This document shows positions 5,064 through 33,008 of a stretch of 49,095 nucleotides of DNA, one piece after another. Each line of letters starts with the position of its first letter. The first letter of the stretch is position 1. Both the position numbers and the translations under genes were made by a program. This DNA is from Theionarchaea archaeon (GTDB lineage Archaea > Methanobacteriota_B > Thermococci > Methanofastidiosales > SZ-28-30): NCBI GenBank assembly GCA_018992565.1, contig JACVGW010000012.1, positions 1 to 49,095 on the forward strand, written 5' to 3'. Under the pieces are notes generated by a model. The model worked only from the letters and a program-made list of their open reading frames with translations. It was not told the origin of the DNA and ran no database searches.

Positions 5064-5990
5064 TCAATCCTTCAATAGCCGTGCATTTCTTCCAACGTGG
5101 AGAGAACATGTTTCTACGCCCATATCTCTGATTCTTTGCTCAATTGTTTCTCTATCCTCAGGATACGAGTTAATGTACAACCCAATCCAATCAGCGTTGA
5201 AATAGGCTGTTACCCCCTCCTCACGCAGCACCGTCACTTCACGGAGAACTCTCAGGACATCAGGTGACCACAGGACCTGGTCGCTTCCTGCAGCAGCAGC
5301 GTGAAGCAGTAGTGAATCTTTTTCTGCCAATTCACCAATTCCCTCTATATCATGATTCCTGATGGCTCTCTCCATCTCAATGACACCAGTACGGCATGTT
5401 TTCAGCCGCGCTTCGGCAAGAGGAGACTTTGCTATTTCAAAATCACTCATGAACAGGTCCACAAACACACGGACCATTCCTATTTCCAGTTCTTCCTCAA
5501 TGACTACTGAGTGAGAAAACTCCTCCTGCAAGCCAGCCGTCCACTTCGAAACCCACCCCACGACTGCCCCAGGTGCAGATTCTGAGCCCTTGGAAGCAAT
5601 CCGTGATAATTCCTTGTGGCTCAAATCCAGTCCACAGGCTTCGGCAGAAGCTGCAGCTACGGCAGCGATGAACGAAGGTTCATCAAGGGTAGTATCCATG
5701 GGCAGGTTGCTCTTCCCCAGAACAGAACACTCGCTCTCAATCCCGGATAGCCTCTTGACGTGAGAGATTACTGCGTCAACTCCGCGCCTCACTTTCCGGG
5801 TTACAGCACGCCCCTCAAAGATGATGTCTCTCGCTTCTCTTTCTTCCTGAAATTCCACAGTAACCATTGTCTCTAAGGGAGCTGTGCACACTGAAATACT
5901 GCCAAGAAAGGGTATATGTGCACCTGGCGTGGCCAATGGAAGTGGGCCTATCCAGGTTTGTACTGGGTGAGCATGTGCTGTGGCCTTCAT
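5064..5990 (-). CDS. GHMP superfamily, diphosphomevalonate/phosphomevalonate decarboxylase-like protein
   Basis: MKATAHAHPVQTWIG start about 26 nt after TTTATAAT. Similar to the MvaD family in SNLPMDTTLDEPSFIAAVAAASAEACGLDLSHKELSRIASKGSESAPGAVVGWVSKW. Confidence 0.6.
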   Translation of the reverse strand: MKATAHAHPVQTWIGPLPLATPGAHIPFLGSISVCTAPLETMVTVEFQEEREARDIIFEGRAVTRKVRRGVDAVISHVKRLSGIESECSVLGKSNLPMDTTLDEPSFIAAVAAASAEACGLDLSHKELSRIASKGSESAPGAVVGWVSKWTAGLQEEFSHSVVIEEELEIGMVRVFVDLFMSDFEIAKSPLAEARLKTCRTGVIEMERAIRNHDIEGIGELAEKDSLLLHAAAAGSDQVLWSPDVLRVLREVTVLREEGVTAYFNADWIGLYINSYPEDRETIEQRIRDMGVETCSLHVGRNARLLKD

Positions 5991-6086: not shown

Positions 6087-6689
6087 ATGGATATTGAATG
6101 GGTATCTGGTGTGGCTTTCGTTGTAATGTTCGTGGGTTACAATCTGGTCTACTTCAGATACACCAAGATCTATCCCAAGAAAACCCAGAAAGGACGCCAG
6201 AACATATACAGGGAGTACTGGATTGAAAATGTTCTCAAGGGAGAAAGAGGGATGGTTGCAGTGCAGCAGATCAGAAATATGACCACCATCACCACATTCC
6301 TGGCTTCTTCCACTCTGATCTTTATGGGTGTTGCAGTGAGCTATGCCAGGGGATCTCTTCCTGGCCTGCAGGATTACTACGACTACAAATTGTATGCTCT
6401 GATAGGAATCATTGCCCTGGCTTTCTTCAATTTCCTCTTCACTTTGAGGACAGCCAATGAGATTACCATTCTGATAGAATCGTCTCCCTCGAAGATTGAG
6501 GAACTGGAGGGAATTCCAGCTGTGGAGTACCTTACTAAGAAAACAAACCAAGCCTTTCTCCACCATACTTTTGGAATGCGGTGCCTGTACTACAGTATCC
6601 CGCTGTTTTTCTGGTTTTTCAGTCCTGTAGTCTTTGTGGCACTGACTGTAGTCATAACAGCGGGGATTGCAAAGTTCCTGGATTTCTGA
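6087..6689 (+). CDS. DUF599-like integral membrane protein
   Basis: TM segments and VQQIRNMTTITTFLASSTLIFMGVAV; internal ATG at 6087 preferred over the longer ORF start. Confidence 0.5.
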   Translation: MDIEWVSGVAFVVMFVGYNLVYFRYTKIYPKKTQKGRQNIYREYWIENVLKGERGMVAVQQIRNMTTITTFLASSTLIFMGVAVSYARGSLPGLQDYYDYKLYALIGIIALAFFNFLFTLRTANEITILIESSPSKIEELEGIPAVEYLTKKTNQAFLHHTFGMRCLYYSIPLFFWFFSPVVFVALTVVITAGIAKFLDF

Positions 6690-7756: not shown

Positions 7757-10700
7757 ATGGATATGCAGAAGTCGACCAAGCTCGTAATGGCTGTAGCACT
7801 TGTTCTGCTGCTGGTAGGTTCAGGTATCACCTACGAAACCAAAGCCAGCGGACCCCGACCTGTAGAGTTACAGGTCAACGAGAACAGTGTGCTCCTCCGT
7901 TCTGCCTCTATCGATGTCAGGTTTGCTGATAACTTGAGAGGGAACCAACAGCTGCCGGTGGACGGCGGATACTACCTCGTGCATTTCAAGGACATGCTGG
8001 GAAAGGATACGGCATCCCGGTTTGTTCTGGCTGTGTCACAGGGAAATATCAAAGAATACATTGGATACAGTACCTATCTGTGTCGATTAAGTAGTTCTCA
8101 CATGGCAGCATTGAATTCCATGAAGGAAATTGACTGGATAGGTCCGTGGAAACCTGAGTACAAGATCAGCCCTGATGTCTATGAGACTGCCAAGACAACG
8201 ACTACCTCAGAAGGGATGCCCTTCGATGGGGATCAAGCGCCGAAGTTCAATGAGCTTTCGCAGCCTGAGAATGAGTTTGCGATTACGTTTTTCACGGGAG
8301 AGAACTCCGCCAACTATATACCTCAGATCAGAGCAATAGGTGGTTATATTCACAATTATACTGCTGAAAGGATGTATGTAACCCTGGACAGGGAGAAAGT
8401 GGTCCAGCTTGCTGATCTGAATGGTGTGTACTTCGTGGAGAGACGATACTTGATGGCACCTGTAAACGACAATGACACCTGGATCGTACAGACCAACCAA
8501 CTTGGAAACAGGAAGGTGTTTAGCAATGGTATTACTGGTTCGGGGCAGGTTGTCGCAATTTCCGATACGGGTATTGATGCAGACCACCTGATGTTCTGGG
8601 ATTCTGTACAGGGACTGCCCTCCCACACGTATAATGCAGCTCAGAGGAAGGTTCTATCATACTACAACTGGTATCAAACCGGAGTCTATACCGTGGCTAC
8701 TCCTTACAACTATTACAATCCTGGAGACGGATACTACCCAGGAGCCGCAGATCCCATGTACAACGTGTACGACTGGGATATTGAGAATCCCATTGGGACC
8801 AACTACGCCGCAGGCCATGGTACACACACATCTGGTACTATTGCAGGTGAGTGGGTGACTGGTAGCGTGTTGCCCACATGGGGTATAACTCCTACTGCCG
8901 GATATGACTTCTACGAGGGAACTGCTTTCCAGGGCAAGCTGGTATTTCAGGATTTGGGACGGTCTGATTCACCGTATGTGTATGGACCTCCAGATCTCAA
9001 TGACCCGACACCTGCAGGGACGCTGAATGGTGTCGCATTCCCTGGGACTGTTGGATTGTTCCCCCAGGCCATGGCAGATGGTGCATACATTCACTCTAAT
9101 TCCTGGGGAGGAGGAGCGTATGGAGCATATGACCCTTACTCCAGGGATGTTGATGAGATGATGTGGGCCAACAAGAATTTCCTGGTGGTATTCTCAAACG
9201 GGAATGACGGGCCCGGTACTACGACTATCACTCCCCCCGCCACTGCCAAGGACTGCCTGAGCGTTGGAGCCTCTGAAACCTCAAATGACGGGTATGGCGA
9301 CAATTCAGAGGACGTGGCTTCATTCTCCAGCTGGGGACCTACTGGAGGCTGGGGAAGAATAAAGCCTGATGTGTGCGCCCCTGGACAGATCATATTCTCA
9401 GGAGCCAACAACAATGTTACAGATGGCACATCACCCAACGATGGATTGGTGGGCCTTCAGGGAACCAGTATGGCGGCCCCCGGTATTGCAGGATGCTGTG
9501 CGTTGGTACGAGAATACTTTATGACTGGGAGTTACACACCTGTAGGTTCATCAACAGGATTCCAGGCTGGAGGAGCTTTCACTCCCTCAGCTGCCATGAT
9601 GAAAGCAGTCATCATCAACAGTGCCCAGCCCATGACTGGATACAACATAGGTGGGACTATCCCCGGTGATGGCCAGGGATGGGGCCGCGTGCTACTTGAC
9701 AATGCACTGTACTTCTCTGGAGATACCCAGTCCCTTCTGATAGATGACAACACTGCAGGATTGGATGGAGCTGCCATCGTACAACCCTTCTTCAAGGCGT
9801 ATACAGCTGTTGTTGGACCTGGAGGATATCTTGACGTCACTATGGCCTATACCGATCCCCCAGGAACAGCAGGTTCCGCTTTCCAGATGGTCAACTACAT
9901 GTACATAGAGGTAGATCATCCTAACGGGATTACATACTACTTGAGCGGAGCCGGCAACTTTTCCGGCGGCTGGACAGTGCCCAATACTGCCTTTATATAC
10001 CCTGATACAGTGCAGAAGGTTCGCATCAACAACCCAACACCCGGTTTATACACCATATTCGTTGTAGCGTTCCAGACGAATCAAGTGACTCCTGGCTGGA
10101 ATGTGCAGCCCTATGCTCTCTCTGTCTCAGGGAACATTGTTCAGTCACAGGGCGTGGTGCAGTTCGATCAGGATTACTACGGGACTACTGATACGCTGGG
10201 AATAACACTCACAGATGCAGACCTGGCAGGAACAGGTACAGCAAGTGTCACAGTTTCCAGTGCTGCCACAGGAGACAGTGAATCTGTCACTGTGAATGAA
10301 ACTGGCGGTGCTACTGGTATTTTCCAGGGGACACTCGGTTGCCTCCCGGGTACGGCAAATCCAGGAAATGGTCAACTGGAAGTATCAGATCCCGACACTC
10401 TCACTGTGACCTACAATGACGCCAGTCCTGCAGGAACAAGGACGGATACTGCCCAAATTGATGGAGTGCCTCCAGTGATCACCAATGTGGCGGCCAACAC
10501 CTGTAATGGGTCAAGTGTCGAGATTACCTGGGACACTGATGAGAACGCCACAACTGTGGTCAACTGGGGAACAACTACCGCATATGGGAACACAATCTCA
10601 GACTCAAACCTGGTGCTCAACCACTATGTTGAATTCGACGGGCTACAGATGGGGACTACCTACTACTACGAGGTATGTTCAACAGATCAAGCAGGGAATT

Positions 10701-16433: not shown

Positions 16434-17063
16434 CTACTCTAATACTGCGTGTCTCGCCTTCATATCCTTTTCGCCTTTCTCAAGCACTTCCATCAAGGAG
16501 GCTACAATGCCTTCCAGGAAGATCATGCAGCAGTCCTCGAACAAGGTACCCATGGGAGTGAGTTGTTGATACGGATGGAGCTCCCGCTCAATATAAGAGA
16601 CAGGTACATCGTCCTTGGTTCTCCCTTTGACAATGACCAGGCAATCTGCAGTCTTACCCAGGGATGAACTGGGATACGAGGTGATGGTTACCACCTTTCC
16701 TCCTCGCTGCTTGGCCACACGGGCAGATGTCAGCACTGAATTGGTTTCCCCTGATCCGGAGATGGCTATCAGGACATCCTGGTCTGTGAAAGCAGGAGTC
16801 GTCGTCTCTCCCACCACAAACACATTCAGATCCAGGTGCATCAATCGCATGGCAAATGCTCTCCCCACCAGACCAGATCTCCCGGCTCCCATAATAAAGA
16901 TCTTGCGAGCCTCCAGAAGCGTCCTGATCATCTGGTCAATGTCTTCATCTCGGATACGGTCTATGTAGGACCTCACATGATCCAGAATACTGATCATGCA
17001 TTGCTTGACAGTCTCGGCTTGTTCTCCGTAGTTCATTTCATTTACCTTTTTTGTCTCAATCAT
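16434..17063 (-). CDS. SIS-domain protein, 6-phospho-3-hexuloisomerase-like
   Basis: [55 protein letters not shown]; probable start MIETKK at 17063. Confidence 0.8.
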
Positions 17064-18627
17064 GCCTTTCACCCATTGCTTTGACGAATCCCACAAATGG
17101 CGGAGACGGATTCTCCAATCGTGACTTGAATTCAGGATGAAACTGGGTTCCCAGGAAGAACGGATGAGTTTTCAATTCTCCGGCTTCCATTTTCTTGATG
17201 TCTGATGATCTGGCTGAGAAAGTGAGACCTCCATCTTCTAGGAAAGGAATGAACTCGGGGTTGACCTCGTACCGGTGCCTGTGGCGTTCCCGGATCACGT
17301 TCTCATTGTACAGTGAGTGAATGAGGGTGTCTTTCTCCAGAAGGATGTCAGTATCCGCTCCCAGCCTCATGGTACCCCCCATGTTGTCTATACTACGCTG
17401 TTCAGGAAGAAGATCAATAACGGGCGTACATGCTATTGCCAGTTCACGGGCCACCTCCGTGCTGTTGGCGTCCTCCATTCCCAGGAACCGTGCATACTCC
17501 ACACAGGCCAGCTGAAACCCATAGCACAACCCCAAAAAGGGAATTTCATGCTCGCGAGCGTACCTGACTGCCTGTATCTTTCCCTCAACGCCGCGGGAAC
17601 CAAATCCGCCTGGAACCAGAATGCCATCGACATGGGCAAATGATGAATCTTCCACTGTCTCAGTATCCAGCATTTCGATTTCCACGTCGATTCCTGTGGC
17701 AAATGAGGCATGCTTCAGGGCTTCTTTTATAGAGATGTATGAATCCGGCAGGTCAACGTACTTCCCCGCCAGACCCAGGTGGACAGTTTTCTCCATCTTT
17801 TTGGAGATAATGGATTTCCAGCGGTTGAGATCGGGTTTTCGTCTTAATCCAATGGTGCGAATGATCTTTTCTCCCACTTTTTGCTCGTTAAGGACCAGTG
17901 GGATCTTGTATATGTCATCCACATCATGGTCACTTATCACCTGGTCTTCATGCACATTACAGAATAGGGCCAGTTTCCTGCGGGTCTTCTCCTCCAGCTC
18001 TTGATGGCATCTGCAGACGATCAGGTTTGGGGATATTCCCGCTTCCCGCAATGTCTTTACTGAGTGCTGGGTGGGTTTCGTCTTCTGTTCCCCCACGACG
18101 TCCAGGGAGGGAACCAGCGTGACGTGGATAAATATGACATCTTCCTCCAGAGAGAGTTGTCTCGCTGCTTCAAGAAAAGGCATTGACTCAATATCACCCA
18201 CTGTTCCTCCCACCTCTATCACGGTAAAATCCTGTTTCTCAGCCACAGAACGTATTTCTTCTGCAATCTCATTGATGACGTGGGGGATAACCTGCACCGT
18301 TTTCCCCAGATAGTCACCTCTCCTTTCCTTCTCGATAACCTGTAAATATACCTTACCTGTTGTAATGTTGTGATCACGGGTCAGGTTGACATTCAAGAAT
18401 CTCTCGTAATTACCCAAGTCGAGGTCAACCTCACCGCCATCTTCCATGACAAATACTTCCCCATGTTCAAAAGGGGACATAGTACCTGCATCAACATTCA
18501 AATATGGATCAATTTTGATGGCAGTGACTTTGTATCCCATGCTCTGCAGAATTTTTGCGACAGAGGCGGTGGTCACCCCTTTTCCTAGGCCTGACATCAC
18601 GCCGCCTGTGACCACAACATACCTCAT
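17056..18627 (-). CDS. pyrG: CTP synthase
   Basis: [52 protein letters not shown]; glutaminase [26 protein letters not shown]; start 18627 about 26 nt after TATTTAAG. Confidence 0.95.
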
Positions 18628-24550: not shown

Positions 24551-25159
24551 ATGGAAGATCCCCGAGGGAAGTACATCAGGTGGAGTGAAGAGTGTGTCTG
24601 GCAGCCTTTCGGTTCATCACTGGTTATTCTCAACCCTTCTCACTCTCACACAGAACTTGTGGATCCGTATGTGAGCCTCAATGAAACGGCAAGAGACATA
24701 TGGAACTGGTGTGATGGTACCAGGACCTTTGAGACTATTGTTGCCCTCATACAGCAGGAATACGAGGGAGATCCCGATCACATCAGTGCCAATGTGCAGT
24801 CTGTTATTTCTCAGCTTCACCAACAGGGACTTCTCAGCTATGAAGATGTCCCGTGCGTCCCCTCAGAACTTACTGTTTCCCCTCACGATTTCATCATGTG
24901 GGCAGATACTGTCCTGTGGGAAGAAGTCGAAGGCAAAATCATTGTCCTGGACAATCATACAGGAACCTCTTACACTCTCCCTGAGGAAGCAACAGACCTG
25001 TGGAAGCTTCTCAATGGACAGGCTGCGCTTCTCATGGTTTTACGCACCCTGAAAGAGAAGGGGACTATTAATGAGGATATGCCCTCAGCCAGATTCAAGC
25101 TGCTTCTCAAGGAGTTTATCAAACTGGGATTACTGACAGTAAAAGACGAACCCTGGTGA
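24551..25159 (+). CDS. Tandem PqqD-like protein (RiPP recognition element candidate)
   Basis: Two successive PqqD-like units: YIRWSEECVWQPFGSSLVILNPSHSHTELVDPYVSLNETARDIWNWCDGTRTFETIVALIQQEYEG... and VLWEEVEGKIIVLDNHTGTSYTLPEEATDLWKLLNGQAALLMVLRTLKEKG... Stop overlaps the next gene's start. Confidence 0.7.
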   Translation: MEDPRGKYIRWSEECVWQPFGSSLVILNPSHSHTELVDPYVSLNETARDIWNWCDGTRTFETIVALIQQEYEGDPDHISANVQSVISQLHQQGLLSYEDVPCVPSELTVSPHDFIMWADTVLWEEVEGKIIVLDNHTGTSYTLPEEATDLWKLLNGQAALLMVLRTLKEKGTINEDMPSARFKLLLKEFIKLGLLTVKDEPW

Positions 25160-26514
25160 AATACATGCAGTCCCTCAAGAGAAAAATCATCATCAAAGTG
25201 GATGAACAGAAATATCTTCTCGTGAACCCTTACACTGGGTTGGCAGATATAATTGATGAAGAGACCTGTCAGCTCCTCCAGCATGATTCTATATCCGTAG
25301 ACAGTGATACAATCCGTACCCTGCAGGCCAGGGGTCACATAGTACATGAGGGAGATGAGGAAGACCTCCTGGACTATCTTGAGCAACAGGCAAAGAAACT
25401 ACACCAGGAGGCCTTACAGTACCACAATCACTGTCTCATCCCCACCTATGGGTGCAATCTTCGCTGTCTTTACTGCTATGAGAAGCACATGTACAAGAAC
25501 GAGGTAAAACTGACACCAGTCATGAACAAGAAGACTGTTGATGCCTTTTTCAGCACCATTCTGTCTATGGATTCTGATGGTCCTCAACGGTTGATAACTC
25601 TGTATGGAGGGGAACCTCTTCAGCTCAAGAACAAGGAGATCATCCAGTACATTCTCTCCTTGGGGAACTCTCATGGATACACCTTTGAAGTGGTAACCAA
25701 TGGAGCTGATTTCCAGCACTTCGTCCCTCTTCTCAGCACTGTTTCTGTAAAATCTGTTCAGATTACTCTGGATGGGCCGGAACGTATTCATGATGCCCGC
25801 AGGTTTCGTCCTGGCAAAAAGGGAACCTTCCAGGATATAACCAGGGGAATAGACATGGCTGTTGACCATGATATCCCCGTAAAGATACGAATCAATGTGG
25901 ACTCTGACAACCTTGATCATATCCCTGAATTTGCTGACTTCTATCAGGAAAAGGGCTGGTACCCGGCTGCGAAGGCGTATGCCTGCAGTGTGCGTTCCTC
26001 AAGCTGTTCACCATATACCCGGGTCATCCCCCCAGAGGACTTTTCCAGGAAAATGATTGACCTTTTTGTGCATGACAGGAGAATGGAATTATTCCCTGGC
26101 ACATTTGGGAGTTTCAACTTCGTGTTCGGTCATCTCTTTCTAGGAACACCTCTCAAGAAACGATTCTGGGGATGCAGTGCGCATACTTCTCTGTTTTTCT
26201 ATGATCCCTTCGGCGATATATACGCCTGTGGGGAGGCTGTAGGGCATAAAGAACACCGAATTGGCACATTCCTTCCCGAACTCACTCTTAATGAGAACTA
26301 TCATAACTGGAGGGGCAGGACCATCCACACAGTACCTGAATGCGCAGACTGCAGCCTGAGTCTCTTCTGCGGTGGAGCGTGTGCATTCAAGGCATACCTC
26401 AAGAATGGCTCTATATACTCCCCGTACTGTGATCATGCCAAATCATCCGTGGAACATGAAGCGAAATATCTGTACCATCTAATGGAGACTCGAGGTACAA
26501 TGCTTTCACATTGA
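25156..26514 (+). CDS. Radical SAM/SPASM peptide maturase (RiPP locus), PqqD/RRE-like N-terminus
   Basis: CxxxCxxC motif IPTYGCNLRCLYCYEKH; LYGGEPL; SPASM CADCSLSLFCGGACAFKAY...PYC; N-terminal KYLLVNPYTGLADIIDEET. Confidence 0.9.
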   Translation: MKYMQSLKRKIIIKVDEQKYLLVNPYTGLADIIDEETCQLLQHDSISVDSDTIRTLQARGHIVHEGDEEDLLDYLEQQAKKLHQEALQYHNHCLIPTYGCNLRCLYCYEKHMYKNEVKLTPVMNKKTVDAFFSTILSMDSDGPQRLITLYGGEPLQLKNKEIIQYILSLGNSHGYTFEVVTNGADFQHFVPLLSTVSVKSVQITLDGPERIHDARRFRPGKKGTFQDITRGIDMAVDHDIPVKIRINVDSDNLDHIPEFADFYQEKGWYPAAKAYACSVRSSSCSPYTRVIPPEDFSRKMIDLFVHDRRMELFPGTFGSFNFVFGHLFLGTPLKKRFWGCSAHTSLFFYDPFGDIYACGEAVGHKEHRIGTFLPELTLNENYHNWRGRTIHTVPECADCSLSLFCGGACAFKAYLKNGSIYSPYCDHAKSSVEHEAKYLYHLMETRGTMLSH

Positions 26515-26593
26515 TAATTGGCCGCACTTTTTGCAGGGAAACTTCGAATAAAGACAACATTTTTAAATCCGCTCGCTGAATGTAATATAGAAA

Positions 26594-26604
26594 GATATTT
26601 AAAC
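26594..26604 (+). promoter_or_regulatory. TATA box for the 46-aa precursor gene
   Basis: GATATTTAAAC about 32 nt upstream of the GTG start, followed by SD GAGGTG (26625-26630). A second TATA-like ATTTTTAAAT lies further upstream (about 26559-26568). Confidence 0.6.
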
Positions 26605-26635
26605 CTACAGAGAGAAAGAGTTCAGAGGTGATTCA

Positions 26636-26776
26636 GTGGAAGTCAAGCGACTCAACAAGAAGACCTGGGCTGACGGTGTTATAAAGCCCCTTGGCGCTCC
26701 TCCCACTCCTGCTGCCATTGATGGCTGCGGCGGCAGCTGTTGCAGCTGCTTCGATTATACCTGTGACCACTGGTAG
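26636..26776 (+). CDS. Candidate RiPP precursor peptide, 46 aa, Cys-rich core
   Basis: GTG start 5 nt after SD GAGGTG. Translation MEVKRLNKKTWADGVIKPLGAPPTPAAIDGCGGSCCSCFDYTCDHW, TAG at 26774-26776. Not in the supplied ORF track (short, GTG start). Flanked by rSAM/SPASM genes. Confidence 0.85.
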   Translation: MEVKRLNKKTWADGVIKPLGAPPTPAAIDGCGGSCCSCFDYTCDHW

Positions 26777-26859
26777 AACTCAATGGTTCTGGTGTAGAGA
26801 AGGAGTAGCTCCAGGTCAAATCTTGAAAAAGAGAGATCAAGTCTATCAGGGCGGTGGGG

Positions 26860-26901
26860 TGAACCCAGCATTCGCGGGTTCTCACTGCCTCCCTTTTTTG
26901 T
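26860..26901 (+). terminator. Possible terminator downstream of the precursor gene
   Basis: GAACCC...GGGTTC inverted repeat followed by CCTCCCTTTTTTG. Confidence 0.4.
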
Positions 26902-26906
26902 GAATG

Positions 26907-27989
26907 TCATCCATTCTGGGTGGGAGTATATGGGCACTGGGGATCTGGCTGGAATGGATCATCATAGACTGCATACGCAATACAGGTGGCACCTCCACTG
27001 CAAATGTTGGGCGCTCTCTTGCAGAAGTAACAATCTCGACATTTTCCTTTGACAATGAGATGTTTCTGGCGGAGGTTCCATAGGACTGGATGACTCCAGA
27101 TCGTAACAAAGTCCTCTTTGAGGAGGTTTCCCAGGAAGACAGGCATCCTCCGACAGGGATAGACATCACCGTTCTCCATGACGCAGATGTGGGATAGCCC
27201 AGCACTGCACCGGTGGCCATTCTTGGTGAGAGCATCAGGATGGGAAGGGTCGAAGATAACTGGCCAGTCGCACCTGTCCCTGGCAATGTGCAGGCCAGAT
27301 GGTTTTTTCGTCGAGAGTTCGTCGAAATCATGGCTTAATTTTGTATATAAGGTCAAGATTTGTTCTGGAGAAAGCATCAATTCTTTGAGTGCCTTCCCCC
27401 TTCCCCAGGGGACAATCCGCGTGACAGTGAGAACATCTGCCCCCATAGCCACTGCAAGGTCTGTTATGTTGAAGGCATCTTCATAGTTGTCTTTGTGGAC
27501 TACATAGTGCATGTGAGTGACGATCTTGGACTTGCTGAGATGGTTCAGTGCTCTCAGTGCCTGGAGAAATGTGCCTCTTCCCCGTACTGCGTCGTGGATT
27601 TCTGAAGTCGCACCATCAAAGCTGATTTGAACATCTATGCGCATGGAGTATTTCTCAAGGCGGTGCACCATCTCTTCAGTCATGGTAGTCCCGTTGGTCA
27701 GTATGGCTGCATAGCAGGGAGACGAGGGGCTCTCCTCAATGTAGTCAAGTATATCCCAAAACTGAGGATGCAGTGTGGGTTCTCCTCCTGTCAGCCAGAT
27801 GACAGGCATCCTCTCAAACCTGGAGCAGTAGTCCAGAAATGCACGTATCACTTTCTTACAGTCCTGAAACCCCATATGATAGTGGGTTTCTGCATCATCA
27901 TAACAGTGGATACACCGCAAATTGCACTGGCCAGTGATTCCCACCTGCATGATGAAGGGATGTTTTCTGGACTCAGGATCATCTCTCAC
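26907..27989 (-). CDS. Radical SAM/SPASM protein of a subfamily distinct from its neighbours
   Basis: MQVGITGQCNLRCIHCYDD; WLTGGEPTLHP; SPASM GKCRDCYFCKRAPNICSGGATCIAY; GTG start 27989 overlaps the upstream stop (GTGA). Confidence 0.88.
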   Translation of the reverse strand: MRDDPESRKHPFIMQVGITGQCNLRCIHCYDDAETHYHMGFQDCKKVIRAFLDYCSRFERMPVIWLTGGEPTLHPQFWDILDYIEESPSSPCYAAILTNGTTMTEEMVHRLEKYSMRIDVQISFDGATSEIHDAVRGRGTFLQALRALNHLSKSKIVTHMHYVVHKDNYEDAFNITDLAVAMGADVLTVTRIVPWGRGKALKELMLSPEQILTLYTKLSHDFDELSTKKPSGLHIARDRCDWPVIFDPSHPDALTKNGHRCSAGLSHICVMENGDVYPCRRMPVFLGNLLKEDFVTIWSHPVLWNLRQKHLIVKGKCRDCYFCKRAPNICSGGATCIAYAVYDDPFQPDPQCPYTPTQNG

Positions 27990-29326
27990 GGTATCACCTT
28001 CTTTGCTTCCATGATCCTCCACAGGAGCGGGTAATATATGGTGCGGGCCTGCTTTGAAAACGTGCAATCAGGCCTCAGGAGCGTGCCTTTCTCATGATAC
28101 ACATAGTGGGCACATCCTCCTCCGCAGATCATGGCATACTTGCACGAGTGGCAAGGGTTCATGGTGAAGATCGTTCTCTCCTTCCACTGGTGGTAGTGTC
28201 GATTCAACACAAGTTCAGGGTAGTATCTCCCCACAGCATGCTCCCTGTCACCCAGAGTATCAGTGCACATGTAGATATCTCCATGGGGGTCCAGCCATAC
28301 TTGAGAAGGATTCTGTCTGCAGTAGGTAGTACAGGGAATCCAGGTGTCAACTCCCAGTCCAAGTTTCTTCCGTATAGGTTCCAGCCCAACCCAGAAAGCG
28401 TCCCGGACTGACTCCTCCTCAACCAGAAAATCCAGGTCTTCCTCATGAAGGTTACACACGAAATTAAAACATCCCCCCTCTGTATGATGGCGCTGCGGAG
28501 TTAGGAACACGGATACGTAGGCGCTGTTCTTCCATCCTTTCTCTTCTGCAAAGTCCATGAATGAGGGTAAGTCCCTTACCGTGGAATGGTCAAAGACTAC
28601 ACGCACATATACGCGTATCTTCTCATCTGCCAGTGCATCAACTGATGCCACAATTTCCTGAAAGGATCCCGTTCCATCCAGTTTCTTTTTTCTGGAATCG
28701 TGAACAGGTGGTAGCCCATCCAGGGTGACCTGCACTGAGGTAATGTCATGCTGCGACAGAAGAGGAATGAATCTTTTTGCTTCCAGCCCATTGGTGACTA
28801 TAATGAATGATTTTTCCTGAGATGATCCTTTTTCCAGTACATATTTGACCAGATCATAATTCCGGTAGAGGAGAGGCTCCCCCCCAAACAGATGAATGGG
28901 AGTATCAGCTTCAGGGTTCATGGTTTCCATGATTTCAAATGCTTTGTCTACATGGTCAAAACTCATGGTGTTCTCAAGCCAGTTCTTCTCTCTCTCAAAA
29001 ACATAAGACTCAAAGCAGTAGTCACACCGCATGTTGCAGGCATAGGTGAGGATCAGCACAAAGAACAAGTTGTCTTGGACAGGGTTGAAGGATGTGAGGC
29101 AATCGTATGCATGGATGATTTCCTCTCTGGGGGACATGGTAGTCAGAAACCCTGACTCCTGCAGTATTTTCACAGCCTCGGCGTCACATGCTTCTGGATT
29201 CTCACTGTCCAGAATCTCTTTCAGATGGTTCTTCCCCTGCAGAATGTGACCGGTGAATGTATTGACGAACAGGTAGTCTTCATCAGAGACCGGGATGACC
29301 ACAGCGTATCGGCTACGGGTCAACAT
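27986..29326 (-). CDS. Radical SAM/SPASM peptide maturase, PqqD/RRE-like N-terminus
   Basis: LTYACNMRCDYCFESY; HLFGGEPLLYRN; SPASM CHSCKYAMICGGGCAHYVY...PDC; N-terminal DYLFVNTFTGHIL. Confidence 0.9.
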   Translation of the reverse strand: MLTRSRYAVVIPVSDEDYLFVNTFTGHILQGKNHLKEILDSENPEACDAEAVKILQESGFLTTMSPREEIIHAYDCLTSFNPVQDNLFFVLILTYACNMRCDYCFESYVFEREKNWLENTMSFDHVDKAFEIMETMNPEADTPIHLFGGEPLLYRNYDLVKYVLEKGSSQEKSFIIVTNGLEAKRFIPLLSQHDITSVQVTLDGLPPVHDSRKKKLDGTGSFQEIVASVDALADEKIRVYVRVVFDHSTVRDLPSFMDFAEEKGWKNSAYVSVFLTPQRHHTEGGCFNFVCNLHEEDLDFLVEEESVRDAFWVGLEPIRKKLGLGVDTWIPCTTYCRQNPSQVWLDPHGDIYMCTDTLGDREHAVGRYYPELVLNRHYHQWKERTIFTMNPCHSCKYAMICGGGCAHYVYHEKGTLLRPDCTFSKQARTIYYPLLWRIMEAKKVIP

Positions 29327-30641
29327 GGCTCTTTTTCACCGCCCTGTAGAGGTGGGGAACCACACTTGAAAACACTTCTTCGTAGTTGTAGCACACTGGC
29401 CTACACAGGGTCCCAAACCGCGTCAAGGCTTCATACCCACATCCTCCCCCGCAGAATAAAGCGTATTTACATGTTCTGCACTCGGGGATGGTGAAAATAG
29501 TCCGATTCCTCCACTCGCTGTACATGTCATTCCACACCAGATCCGGGTAGTACCTCCCTACTCTAGCCTGTTCTTCCCCCACATGTTCAGTGCATACGTA
29601 TATGTCTCCAAAAGGATCAAAAACAAACGTGCCGCTCTGTGCATCGCAGTACCAGAAGCGGGGAGGTCCCAGTTCTCCTTTTTCAAATACCTGTTCAAAC
29701 AATTCTGCCCCTTTCAAGTCGAACGATACGTGCATAATATCAGGAGATTTCTGTGTTTGGGCTATGACTGTATCATACACTGTACTCCTGGGGACAATGG
29801 GGGTGTACTGGATTCCCGGTTTCTTGAAGACAGGTGACACATGCATTGATACCTTTGGATGGTGGAGCCAGCCCTTCTCATGGTAGAGCTGCACTACTTC
29901 AGGCAGGACAGACAGGTTGTCTGCATCAATGTTTGTGCGCAGCAGACAGGTCAGCCCTGCTTCCAGAGCAGCATCAATTCCTTCTATGATTTCTGAAAAA
30001 GTCCCAGATCCATTTTTTTTGAACCGTCTCTTGTCATGAATTTGCTGGGGCCCATCTATGGTGGTCTGTACGGCTACCTCATAGGGCTGGAAGTCCTCTA
30101 CAAAATCGCGGAGCAAGACACCATTTGTTAGAACCAAAAAGGAATACCCGAGATCATCTCCTGTCTCCAGTATCTTCTTCACAGCATCTCTGTTCTTCCT
30201 AAGGAGAGGCTCTCCTCCGTACAAGATGATTCGGTAGCGAGATTCATCCAGCCGGGCGATTATACTGAAAATAGTGTCTATGTGGGGACCATCGATAACT
30301 GTGGATTCTCTCTTTGACTGTATATCAGAAAGGTAACAATACGGGCACTGTAAATTGCACTCGTACGTGAGAACAATGAAATGCTGATGCAATACAGGGT
30401 GCCCCTGCACATATGTGTCGTACATGGTCTTTATGCACTCTGACTCCTGATAAGGTGTCAGTTCTGTAAGATGCCCTCTCTCGGTGAGAGTATCAAGAAT
30501 TGTTTCATCCGGAGGAATTTCATTCCTGAGTACTCTCAGGACTTCTTCATCTACCAGATCTAGTGCACCTGTTCTTGAATTGATAAGAAGGTACGTGTTT
30601 TCGTCGAGCTGCAGCGGAATGCTGTACACACTCACGTTCAC
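29313..30641 (-). CDS. Radical SAM/SPASM peptide maturase, PqqD/RRE-like N-terminus
   Basis: LTYECNLQCPYCYLSD; LYGGEPLLRKN; SPASM CRTCKYALFCGGGCGYEAL...PVC; N-terminal TYLLINSRTGALDLVDEEV; SD GGAGGTG before the GTG start. Confidence 0.9.
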   Translation of the reverse strand: MNVSVYSIPLQLDENTYLLINSRTGALDLVDEEVLRVLRNEIPPDETILDTLTERGHLTELTPYQESECIKTMYDTYVQGHPVLHQHFIVLTYECNLQCPYCYLSDIQSKRESTVIDGPHIDTIFSIIARLDESRYRIILYGGEPLLRKNRDAVKKILETGDDLGYSFLVLTNGVLLRDFVEDFQPYEVAVQTTIDGPQQIHDKRRFKKNGSGTFSEIIEGIDAALEAGLTCLLRTNIDADNLSVLPEVVQLYHEKGWLHHPKVSMHVSPVFKKPGIQYTPIVPRSTVYDTVIAQTQKSPDIMHVSFDLKGAELFEQVFEKGELGPPRFWYCDAQSGTFVFDPFGDIYVCTEHVGEEQARVGRYYPDLVWNDMYSEWRNRTIFTIPECRTCKYALFCGGGCGYEALTRFGTLCRPVCYNYEEVFSSVVPHLYRAVKKSHVDP

Positions 30642-30779: not shown

Positions 30780-31574
30780 ATGATGGATCATGATGATTTT
30801 GTCAGGTATGTAGAGGATTCACATACGGTATTTGTACTATATTCCATCAAGGAACGATTGGTAGGTATAGATGAGACCACAGACGTTGCTATCAAGAAGA
30901 TAGGGTATCCTGGAAGGATGGAGAATATTCTGAGGAAGCTCTTTTTTGGAGAAGGGATTCCTGGAATTGTGACAAGGAAGACCCGTCCGTATTTTCACAG
31001 TCTGATTTCCATTCCTTTGCGGAAGATCGACATATGTGCCTTTGCTCATGCTTCTCTTGAGACTCAGCTGGAGGAGAAATGGAAGGTTGAAATGGAGCAA
31101 GCACACGGGAGGAAAAGGATGTTGTTTGAATTTGCTGCATCACTGAGAGACATTTTTATGAAGCAGGAGATTCTGGCATCAGCTATCAGGGGTTCAACTG
31201 TCATTGAGGGAAGGTATCCCTCCCCTGTGGATGCTGTAAATTTCGTCATTTTCACCGAATTCGATTTGAAAGAATATTTTGAAAGGGAAATCACTCAACA
31301 TAAAGAGATCAGCTTTTTTAAATGGATTGACTGGGGATTTAGGGATGTTGTCGCAGGGAACAGAACAAGGAAAACACTCATAGAGCAGAAGACTGTTTTG
31401 TTCGAAAGGAATGGGATGTACAGGATTGATGTGCGATCTTTCAACCCTGAACAGTGGTTCTGGCTCAAGAAGGCTCCCAGAGTGACCCGGCTGGTATACC
31501 TCAAGAGCCTGGAAGGGATCTACCCTTTCAAAGGAGAAGAGCTCTTGCAGGAGTTCTGCAGTCTCATCACATAA
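30780..31574 (+). CDS. Uncharacterised 264-aa protein in the rSAM locus
   Basis: ORF immediately upstream of the next rSAM gene. The segment IRGSTVIEGRYPSPVDAVNFVIFTEFDLKEYFEREI faintly resembles a nucleotidyltransferase-type GS...D strand, but this is not secure. Confidence 0.7.
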   Translation: MMDHDDFVRYVEDSHTVFVLYSIKERLVGIDETTDVAIKKIGYPGRMENILRKLFFGEGIPGIVTRKTRPYFHSLISIPLRKIDICAFAHASLETQLEEKWKVEMEQAHGRKRMLFEFAASLRDIFMKQEILASAIRGSTVIEGRYPSPVDAVNFVIFTEFDLKEYFEREITQHKEISFFKWIDWGFRDVVAGNRTRKTLIEQKTVLFERNGMYRIDVRSFNPEQWFWLKKAPRVTRLVYLKSLEGIYPFKGEELLQEFCSLIT

Positions 31575-33008
31575 GTGGAAAGGATTTTAACTCTGAAAAC
31601 AGAGAGGAATGATAGTCCCATGTATGCCAGTACGTACAACAGCGTGATACCCATGGACTCGGGTGAAGCAGTGTTATTCAATTCGCTGAGCGGAGCTCTT
31701 TTTGTGCTGGATAGAAGAATTGCATCTGCTATAGGGAGGGGGGATTGTGGATCAGTGGACAATTCAATTCTTCAGTATCTTAAGAAGGACAATATCCTGT
31801 ATGATAGTATTGACGATGAGAAGGCTCACGTCAGCTTCACTGCAGAGATGGTGAAGAAGTCTCAGGAAAGTGAACGAATACGGTATCATGTGGTTCCCAC
31901 TCTCGGGTGCAATATTTCGTGTTCTTACTGCGATAGAGGAGGGGACAGAGACAGTATGTCTGCCAGCCAGGCTGCAAAGGTAATTGAGGCTATAGAGTAT
32001 GTTGAAGAGTTGACTTCTGGTAGCCATGCACCCCTTCTGATTCTGGATGGTGGTGAGCCGCTGTCTCTCCAGGAAGAGGTGAGAGAGAGTTGTTCCACTT
32101 TGCTGGATCTGGCCGACGAAAGGGATTTTCACGTAGCTTTCAGGACAAATGGAGTCACCTTGTCCGAATATGCTGCAGACCTGACACAGTACTATGTTGA
32201 GTACGTGGATGTTCCTGTAGATGGCACGAAATCATATCACGATAGGAGACGAAGATCCCAGAAAGGGGGAACCTTTGACGATATTGTGACAGGCATTGAG
32301 ACAGCTCTGGATTGTGGGTTACAGGTGAACCTGCGTCTGCAGGTATCATCTCACAACCTCATGGAAGCACCTGCAATGGCGGAGTTCATCATGGACAAGA
32401 CATGGCACCTGGCCAGGAATTTTCGTGCACTTCTTTGCCCACTTGAGGACTTCTCCTGTTATGGGTTTCGTACATGTAGGCCAGACTATAGTATCCTGAA
32501 GGATGTTCTTGAGTTGTACCAGGCGCATGCAGCAATGGAGCTTTTCACGCTAACTGGATTCTTTGAGATTTCAAGCCTGTTGTACCTTCTGGAGAGTGGA
32601 GTGAGTCTTCGCCCTCGGTTGTCCCCCTGTGATGCAGGAAAAGCACTGTACTGTTTTGACCCTTACAACACCATCTACCCCTGCGTGGCAGCCTGCATGA
32701 TGCGGACGTCACCTGTGGGCATGTACCAGCCCGAAATGACAGTATTTCCTGCCCTGGATCAGTGGCGAACCCGTAGCGTCTTCACTGTGGATTCCTGTCT
32801 ATCGTGCCCCTTCTGCTTTGTATGTGGTGGAGGGTGTACTCTGCAGGCGACGACCCATGGTGCTGTGACCAAACCTCAATGCCGTCCTGTAGACACGGCC
32901 TTACAGCTAGCATGTGCAGAATACTTGAGTGAGAATAGAGCAAGAGAGAGTTCTTTCATCTATTTTGATAACATTTTTATCCCAAAAAAAGAAATAACCT
33001 TCCCATGA
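31575..33008 (+). CDS. Radical SAM/SPASM peptide maturase, PqqD/RRE-like N-terminus
   Basis: VPTLGCNISCSYCDRGG; ILDGGEPLSL; SPASM CLSCPFCFVCGGGCTLQAT...PQC. The true start may be ATG 31620 (MYASTYNSVIPMDSGEAVLFNSLSGALFVLD). Confidence 0.88.
   Translation: MERILTLKTERNDSPMYASTYNSVIPMDSGEAVLFNSLSGALFVLDRRIASAIGRGDCGSVDNSILQYLKKDNILYDSIDDEKAHVSFTAEMVKKSQESERIRYHVVPTLGCNISCSYCDRGGDRDSMSASQAAKVIEAIEYVEELTSGSHAPLLILDGGEPLSLQEEVRESCSTLLDLADERDFHVAFRTNGVTLSEYAADLTQYYVEYVDVPVDGTKSYHDRRRRSQKGGTFDDIVTGIETALDCGLQVNLRLQVSSHNLMEAPAMAEFIMDKTWHLARNFRALLCPLEDFSCYGFRTCRPDYSILKDVLELYQAHAAMELFTLTGFFEISSLLYLLESGVSLRPRLSPCDAGKALYCFDPYNTIYPCVAACMMRTSPVGMYQPEMTVFPALDQWRTRSVFTVDSCLSCPFCFVCGGGCTLQATTHGAVTKPQCRPVDTALQLACAEYLSENRARESSFIYFDNIFIPKKEITFP

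Follow-up and report, generated by a model that had tools for sequence, protein, structure and literature searches.

A putative family of radical SAM RiPP precursors beside SPASM genes in two Theionarchaea genomes

Introduction

Archaeal RiPPs include haloarchaeal lanthipeptides, which have been experimentally verified, and a radical SAM (rSAM) type known from prediction (PMC12144867). The rSAM-SPASM kind of RiPP is itself known. Ranthipeptides such as SCIFF (CteA-CteB) and freyrasin (PapA-PapB) combine a short Cys-rich precursor with one rSAM, a SPASM maturase with an N-terminal RRE. In CteB the leader is bound to the RRE in the form of a beta strand (PMC8326336) and a conserved leader Asn of PapA has been proposed as necessary for RRE binding (PMC9413430). 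The acceptor residues known for PapB and SCIFF are Asp, Glu, and Thr (PMC9413430, PMC8326336). Sactipeptides, among them subtilosin A, SkfA, and ruminococcin C, are also Cys-rich and rSAM-SPASM modified. In the PQQ, mycofactocin, SynChlorMet, and GeoRSP cassettes a separate PqqD-like chaperone accompanies an rSAM and a short peptide. The cyanobactin oxidase ThcOx bears two RRE-like winged helices in tandem.

The literature searched contained no paper that connects Theionarchaea to RiPPs or to enzymes of this group. The DNA analysed here (the window) is a 49,095 bp stretch of a Theionarchaea contig. An initial annotation had read a 46-codon ORF at 26636-26776 as the precursor of a RiPP of no named family. 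The best reading of the present analysis is a new rSAM RiPP precursor family restricted to Theionarchaea.

Gene Content of the Locus

A tandem PqqD-like protein, whose start was assigned from paralogs, is encoded at 24551-25159 (+). It matched Pfam PqqD at 1.5e-20, and a weak second match together with a repeated motif indicated the doubling. Its two RRE winged helices are proposed to act as a leader-binding chaperone in trans. The structure model was of low confidence (pLDDT 68) and had ThcOx as its top fold match, with the leader-bound RRE of TbiB1 also matched. The next gene, rSAM1 (25156-26514, +), was assigned from Pfam, motifs, and a model as a SPASM maturase that carries an RRE at its N-terminus. 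The best match of the rSAM1 model (pLDDT 83, pTM 0.84) in both sequence and fold was CteB, the SCIFF/ranthipeptide maturase, which is also the closest solved structure. This fold alignment is nearly full-length and so takes in the N-terminal RRE. An RRE is present in the locus by both the Pfam PqqD match and the full-length fold match to CteB, with leader binding predicted.

Three convergent rSAM genes occupy 26907-30641. The first, rSAM2 (26907-28067, -), matches Pfam SPASM and is an AhbD/MftC/PqqE-like protein. Only 47 residues precede its CxxxCxxC motif (the start is uncertain), leaving no room for an RRE, so it would need one in trans. The other two, rSAM3 (27986-29326, -) and rSAM4 (29313-30641, -), are CteB/CefB-like SPASM maturases. 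CxxxCxxC and the SPASM motifs CX9-15GX4C and CX2CX5CX3C were found in rSAM1, rSAM3, and rSAM4, and these cysteines are invariant in ten paralogs. Pfam agrees with the setting first described for the ORF, a PqqD-rSAM pair facing three convergent rSAM genes. A 264-aa ORF (30780-31574, +) with no Pfam or NCBIfam match and a fifth radical SAM protein, rSAM5 (31575-33008, +), detected in Pfam/NCBIfam searches, are candidate members of the system. No precursor was seen beside rSAM5. Neither a protease nor an exporter was found in the cluster, and a C39 peptidase search of the 88%-complete genome found none.

Comparison With Described Systems

The locus combines the features of an rSAM-SPASM RiPP system, namely a short precursor by maturase genes (as in all nine members of the family described below), CxxxCxxC with the seven-Cys SPASM motif, an RRE, and a conserved leader with a variable core. 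Named maturase families in NCBIfam matched every enzyme far below cut-off, including the best models of rSAM1, rSAM3, and rSAM4, among which were CefB, TIGR04463, and PapB.

Ranthipeptides resemble the locus in the short Cys-rich precursor, the SPASM maturase with N-terminal RRE, and CteB as best match of rSAM1. The leader Asn of PapA (PMC9413430) also has a parallel in an Asn that is invariant in the leaders of the six close family members. They differ in that the precursor here matched none of their families and has neither six-Cys-in-45 nor repeated CX3D/E. The rSAM1 protein scored 119.7 bits against a cut-off of 340 for PapB and 86.8 against 425 for the SCIFF maturase, and a tandem PqqD and four rSAMs are present where ranthipeptides have one rSAM. 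Sactipeptides have many possible acceptors, which would suit the varied cores, but the AlbA, StsB, and RumMC models were not over cut-off and the present system is archaeal with a tandem RRE in trans. CefB, the Cys-every-fifth maturase (NF038107), was the top NCBIfam model of rSAM1, rSAM3, and rSAM4 at near full length. It reached 160.7 bits against a cut-off of 600, however, and the precursor does not have Cys at every fifth residue.

The separate chaperone recalls the PQQ, mycofactocin, SynChlorMet, and GeoRSP cassettes, and ScmD was the best match of the PqqD protein. The scores fell short of the SynChlorMet cut-offs (ScmD 38.1 bits against 100, ScmE 57.1 or 112.7 against 400, ScmF 77.3 against 400) and of the GeoRSP PqqD cut-off (31.4 against 100). 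Unlike in those cassettes PqqD is doubled here, and the precursor is unrelated. In ThcOx, top fold match of the low-confidence model, the RREs are fused to an oxidase, whereas here they stand alone or, on contig C10 of a second Theionarchaea genome (G001), are fused to an rSAM2-type SPASM protein. This fusion is the best evidence for which proteins partner. The tandem PqqD alignment matched only Theionarchaea archaeon SZ_20-22.3 (JACVGT) in the named-genome collection, and no relative of the protein was found in the phage collection.

The Precursor Gene

The ORF lies on the plus strand in the 392-bp gap between rSAM1 and rSAM2. Re-reading confirmed the first annotation in its translation, its start (a GTG at 26636), and its stop, which ends at 26776, and the product is MEVKRLNKKTWADGVIKPLGAPPTPAAIDGCGGSCCSCFDYTCDHW. 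The Shine-Dalgarno sequence (SD) described for it, GAGGTG, was located at 26625-26630 inside AGAGGTGAT, 5 nt upstream of the GTG, and matches the archaeal anti-SD. The element as a whole is GAGGTGAT (26625-26632, +), and an SD of the GAGGTG/AGGTGA type precedes nearly all family members. The paralog on contig C97 has the identical SD and an ATG at the codon equivalent to the GTG of the window, so the GTG start is taken to be correct. The TATA box that had been noted is the TATA-like AAAGATATTTAAA at 26591-26603 (+). It recurs at C97 as AAAGATATATATA in nearly the same position relative to the start (45 nt in the window, 46 nt at C97). As for the possible terminator, a terminator-like GC-rich hairpin followed by T6 was found at about 26848-26899 (+), between the precursor and the convergent operon, with a dG of -26 kcal/mol and a z of -2.9; it was absent from the output of a simple terminator scan.

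Markov simulations of the 392-bp gap yielded a qualifying ORF (at least 35 aa, at least five Cys within the last 20 residues, and none before) in 9 of 20,000 runs; the window has one, a feature picked post hoc. The antisense ORF 26633-26770 and the remaining frames were dropped, as conservation tracks the plus frame with an excess of differences at third positions. Conservation in paralogs and in one ortholog pair is decisive, and on this comparative evidence 26636-26776 is a gene and not a chance ORF.

The Peptide Family

Searched against the whole of its own genome, the peptide matched itself, a peptide at C97 with an E value of 2.5e-10, and, marginally, one at C29. The degenerate pattern (L/V)NKKxW had five exact matches in 2.8 Mb, each at the start of a small ORF whose C-terminus is rich in Cys. 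The five strong members are the window peptide, MEVVRLNKKMWTDATVEPLDFNPGPAVICGCGGGCCYGRW at C97, MKALRVNKKLWTEILIEDISESPSICNPIITPYGVCGGCCCPFLCRPLIC at C29, and MKAISLNKKLWTDVTMDSLDFVSPDCEGPLINGCGGGGCYFSPCPPWIWPCNFF and MKAISLNKKLWRDVAMGDLDFVSPDCDVPLVTGCGSIPCPSLCILHCYPHMCIHF at C13. A five-member profile recovered these at E values of 4e-20 or better, as self-hits, and found no further credible match in the same genome. The pattern and HMM searches were blind to location and all five strong members adjoin SPASM rSAM genes; by a rough estimate, these genes and the regions around them account for only about 4% of the genome. One-mismatch LNKKxW matches beyond the five were inspected and rejected.

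The top profile match in G001, a MAG of the same genus, was MKALRVNKKLWTNVLIVDMNESPSLCEIIVTPYGVCGCGGCCCAFYCRTLIC (E value 1.7e-14). It is orthologous to the C29 paralog, and the same two rSAM genes follow both. Over the only 50 codons of this pair dS was 0.94 and dN 0.167, giving a dN/dS of about 0.18, and 20 of the 35 differences fall at third codon positions. The dS values of the neighboring genes were similar (1.02 for the rSAM and 0.93 for a nuclease-type gene). The plus frame of this pair, short as it is, is by these rates under purifying selection. For the locus of the window itself no ortholog with a precursor was found in the sister genome, and conservation across the two species is limited to this other paralog.

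When 1,174 small intergenic ORFs, taken from rSAM loci in the two genomes, were clustered by BLAST, the window peptide fell into a group of nine. Six are close relatives and three (C13, C140, and G001:C10) are distant ones that share a shorter motif around the Trp. All nine lie beside SPASM rSAM genes. A nine-row profile recovered its nine members and gave only two matches, with an E value of 0.02, in 114 other genomes of the phylum; as the members were also its training sequences this is a saturation check and not independent proof. Among the 116 genomes of the phylum searched, the family was not found beyond the two Theionarchaea, and a scan of the genome collection with the precursor alignment gave no relative outside. 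Neither NCBIfam nor Pfam matched the precursor family, in agreement with the statement that the peptide belongs to no named family. By sequence similarity it is a family of at least nine short Cys-rich peptides in two Theionarchaea genomes.

Weak single-peptide matches in Thermococcales-like genomes were translated and rejected, their frames being unrelated. In the C140 member (L091:5349-5597, +) the strong SD GGAGGTGAG precedes an ATG that lies outside the conserved frame.

Close members share the leader MxxxxLNKKxWtD, which is followed by a hinge and then by a Cys core that changes fast and opens with CGG or CGS. The LNKKxW motif of the window peptide (26651-26668, +) is the proposed RRE-binding element and the core CGGSCCSCFDYTCDHW (26726-26773, +), delimited by a putative cleavage site, is the proposed modified part. 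Mean identity among the six close members was 63% over the first 13 residues and 39% over the cores, a pattern that is typical of RiPP precursors and bears out the division into a leader-like N-terminal half and a Cys core that had been proposed for the single peptide. Cys is the sole core feature conserved in every member; its number and spacing differ among close members while the leader is constant. Most cores of the close relatives have no Asp, Glu, or Thr. The window core has one CX3D (C36-D40), and the cores of its five close relatives have none. Several cores terminate in aromatic residues (W, FF, HF).

Related Loci

The window locus is one among many rSAM-precursor loci of its genome. 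SPASM matches numbered at least 40 in this genome and 35 in G001, against between 0 and 11 in each of the remaining 114 genomes from the phylum, and by these counts the difference is a large lineage-specific expansion. The closest parallel is C13, which repeats the whole gene set of the window at 39-58% identity. Its order is rSAM1, PqqD, precursor, and convergent rSAM3 (54%) and rSAM4 (50%), with rSAM2 (58%) nearby. At C97 PqqD, rSAM1, a B12-type rSAM, and the precursor are followed by a convergent rSAM that is interrupted by the contig end. Beside the C13 precursor clusters, genes at L049:5477-6448 (-) and 16852-17817 (+) encode two 320-aa proteins that are related to each other, show a weak AsnC-like helix-turn-helix, and may regulate these clusters.

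Other short peptides were seen at rSAM loci. A second precursor family forms tandem pairs of the type MISMYI(R/K)SEIEEISMEIDQCMCCA (L092:7390-7476 and 7764-7871, -; L172:8155-8241 and 8539-8646, -), conserved across both genomes upstream of an orthologous rSAM. The peptide MEPMNMTILIEAEEQIMEPLCITEGTGSWCCKICHPYV (L095:3190-3306, +; L174:7109-7225, -) is near-identical in both genomes, with two rSAMs and a B12-type rSAM after it. Three peptides of the form MKCEKVE...CPP.PCxCxNI surround a single SPASM gene (L096:3790-3900, 5294-5473, and 5674-5772, +). An MKFNVKKVExVSTTA...W.E.K.QCL family occurs at SPASM loci of both genomes (L108:3000-3104 and 6111-6209; L176:8361-8450; L179:4021-4128). An xAxLI...LGNC/LGEC family is found at rSAM loci (L004:464-628; L097:5213-5374; L100:1845-2003 and 5423-5686), including on the C97 contig that bears the window-peptide paralog.

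Proposed Mechanism and Alternative Explanations

That 26636-26776 encodes an rSAM-SPASM RiPP precursor is very likely the best explanation of the locus, and for the precursor role of the peptide taken by itself our confidence, drawn from sequence comparison, is higher still. The RiPP precursor reading first given to the single peptide is supported by paralogs near SPASM genes that repeat its leader and also have a Cys core, and by the purifying selection in the ortholog pair. Weighing against it are the failure to find a protease or exporter in the cluster or a C39 peptidase in the 88%-complete genome, the below-cut-off scores of every enzyme for named maturase families, the scarcity of known acceptors in most cores of the close relatives, and the lack of a precursor-bearing ortholog of the window's own locus in the sister genome. 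By analogy with the families concerned, the leader, probably through its invariant Asn-Lys-Lys-x-Trp, would bind the wing of the RRE domains. For this rSAM2 would rely on the tandem PqqD protein acting in trans, and rSAM1, rSAM3, and rSAM4 on their own N-terminal RREs. The rSAMs would cleave SAM reductively, take hydrogen from core residues, and cross-link the cysteines there, most likely making the product a modified peptide type new to these archaea. The cross-links would be thioethers, each costing 2 Da. A protease outside the cluster would then remove the leader around residues 30/31, and the product is probably a signalling, antagonistic, or metal-binding peptide.

Thioether chemistry is somewhat favored, since nothing in the core but Cys is constant and CteB, the closest enzyme of solved structure, makes thioethers. 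The alternative that keeps the precursor role has a real but lesser chance. Here the modification would be C-C or ether links on Trp, Tyr, or Phe, epimerisation, or others, and the cysteines would serve as disulfides or metal ligands. The aromatic ends of several cores and the scarcity of known thioether acceptors would fit this, as would rSAM2, which is nearest to the AhbD, mycofactocin MftC, and PqqE types that are not thioether enzymes, and the extra B12-type rSAM at C97. Against it, every member retains Cys as the one shared core feature, and CteB/PapB/SCIFF-type maturases are the closest ones to rSAM1, rSAM3, and rSAM4. The absence of Asp, Glu, and Thr from most cores of the close relatives argues against both the PapB and the SCIFF rules and excludes a PapB-type Cys-Asp rule for the family as a whole. 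Together rSAM2 and the B12-type rSAM at C97 suggest more than one type of modification.

It is very unlikely that the peptide accompanies the rSAM genes as a small scaffold or Fe-S or zinc binding protein without being their substrate. The CGGxCC-rich tails are capable of binding metal and the anaerobic host has many Fe-S enzymes, but variable Cys number and spacing beside a fixed leader are the reverse of what a metal site would show, and RRE binding predicts a conserved leader. Slighter still is the chance that the ORF arose at random or is decayed. It is short, starts with GTG, and comes from a MAG assembly; the paralogs, the dN/dS of the ortholog pair, and the conserved SD and TATA elements stand against this.

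Significance

The putative RiPP precursor family is absent from NCBIfam and Pfam. What sets the locus apart from a plain new member of the rSAM-SPASM kind is its doubled trans RRE, the presence of four rSAMs for one precursor, and the recurrence of the whole set. Tentatively, the loci may form a multi-locus Theionarchaea RiPP system in which one shared leader precedes unlike Cys cores, each precursor has as many as four SPASM rSAMs of its own, in some cases joined by a B12-type rSAM, the tandem RRE is a shared docking protein, and the link is of a new kind. The novelty of the link, if true, would follow from the absence of Asp, Glu, and Thr, the established thioether acceptors, from most cores. 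In a lineage that has yet to be cultured, the locus offers small, well-defined candidate substrates matched to their enzymes. The recurrence of the set, with the leader kept and the core changed, amounts to a natural experiment in how several rSAMs may share one substrate via RRE docking.
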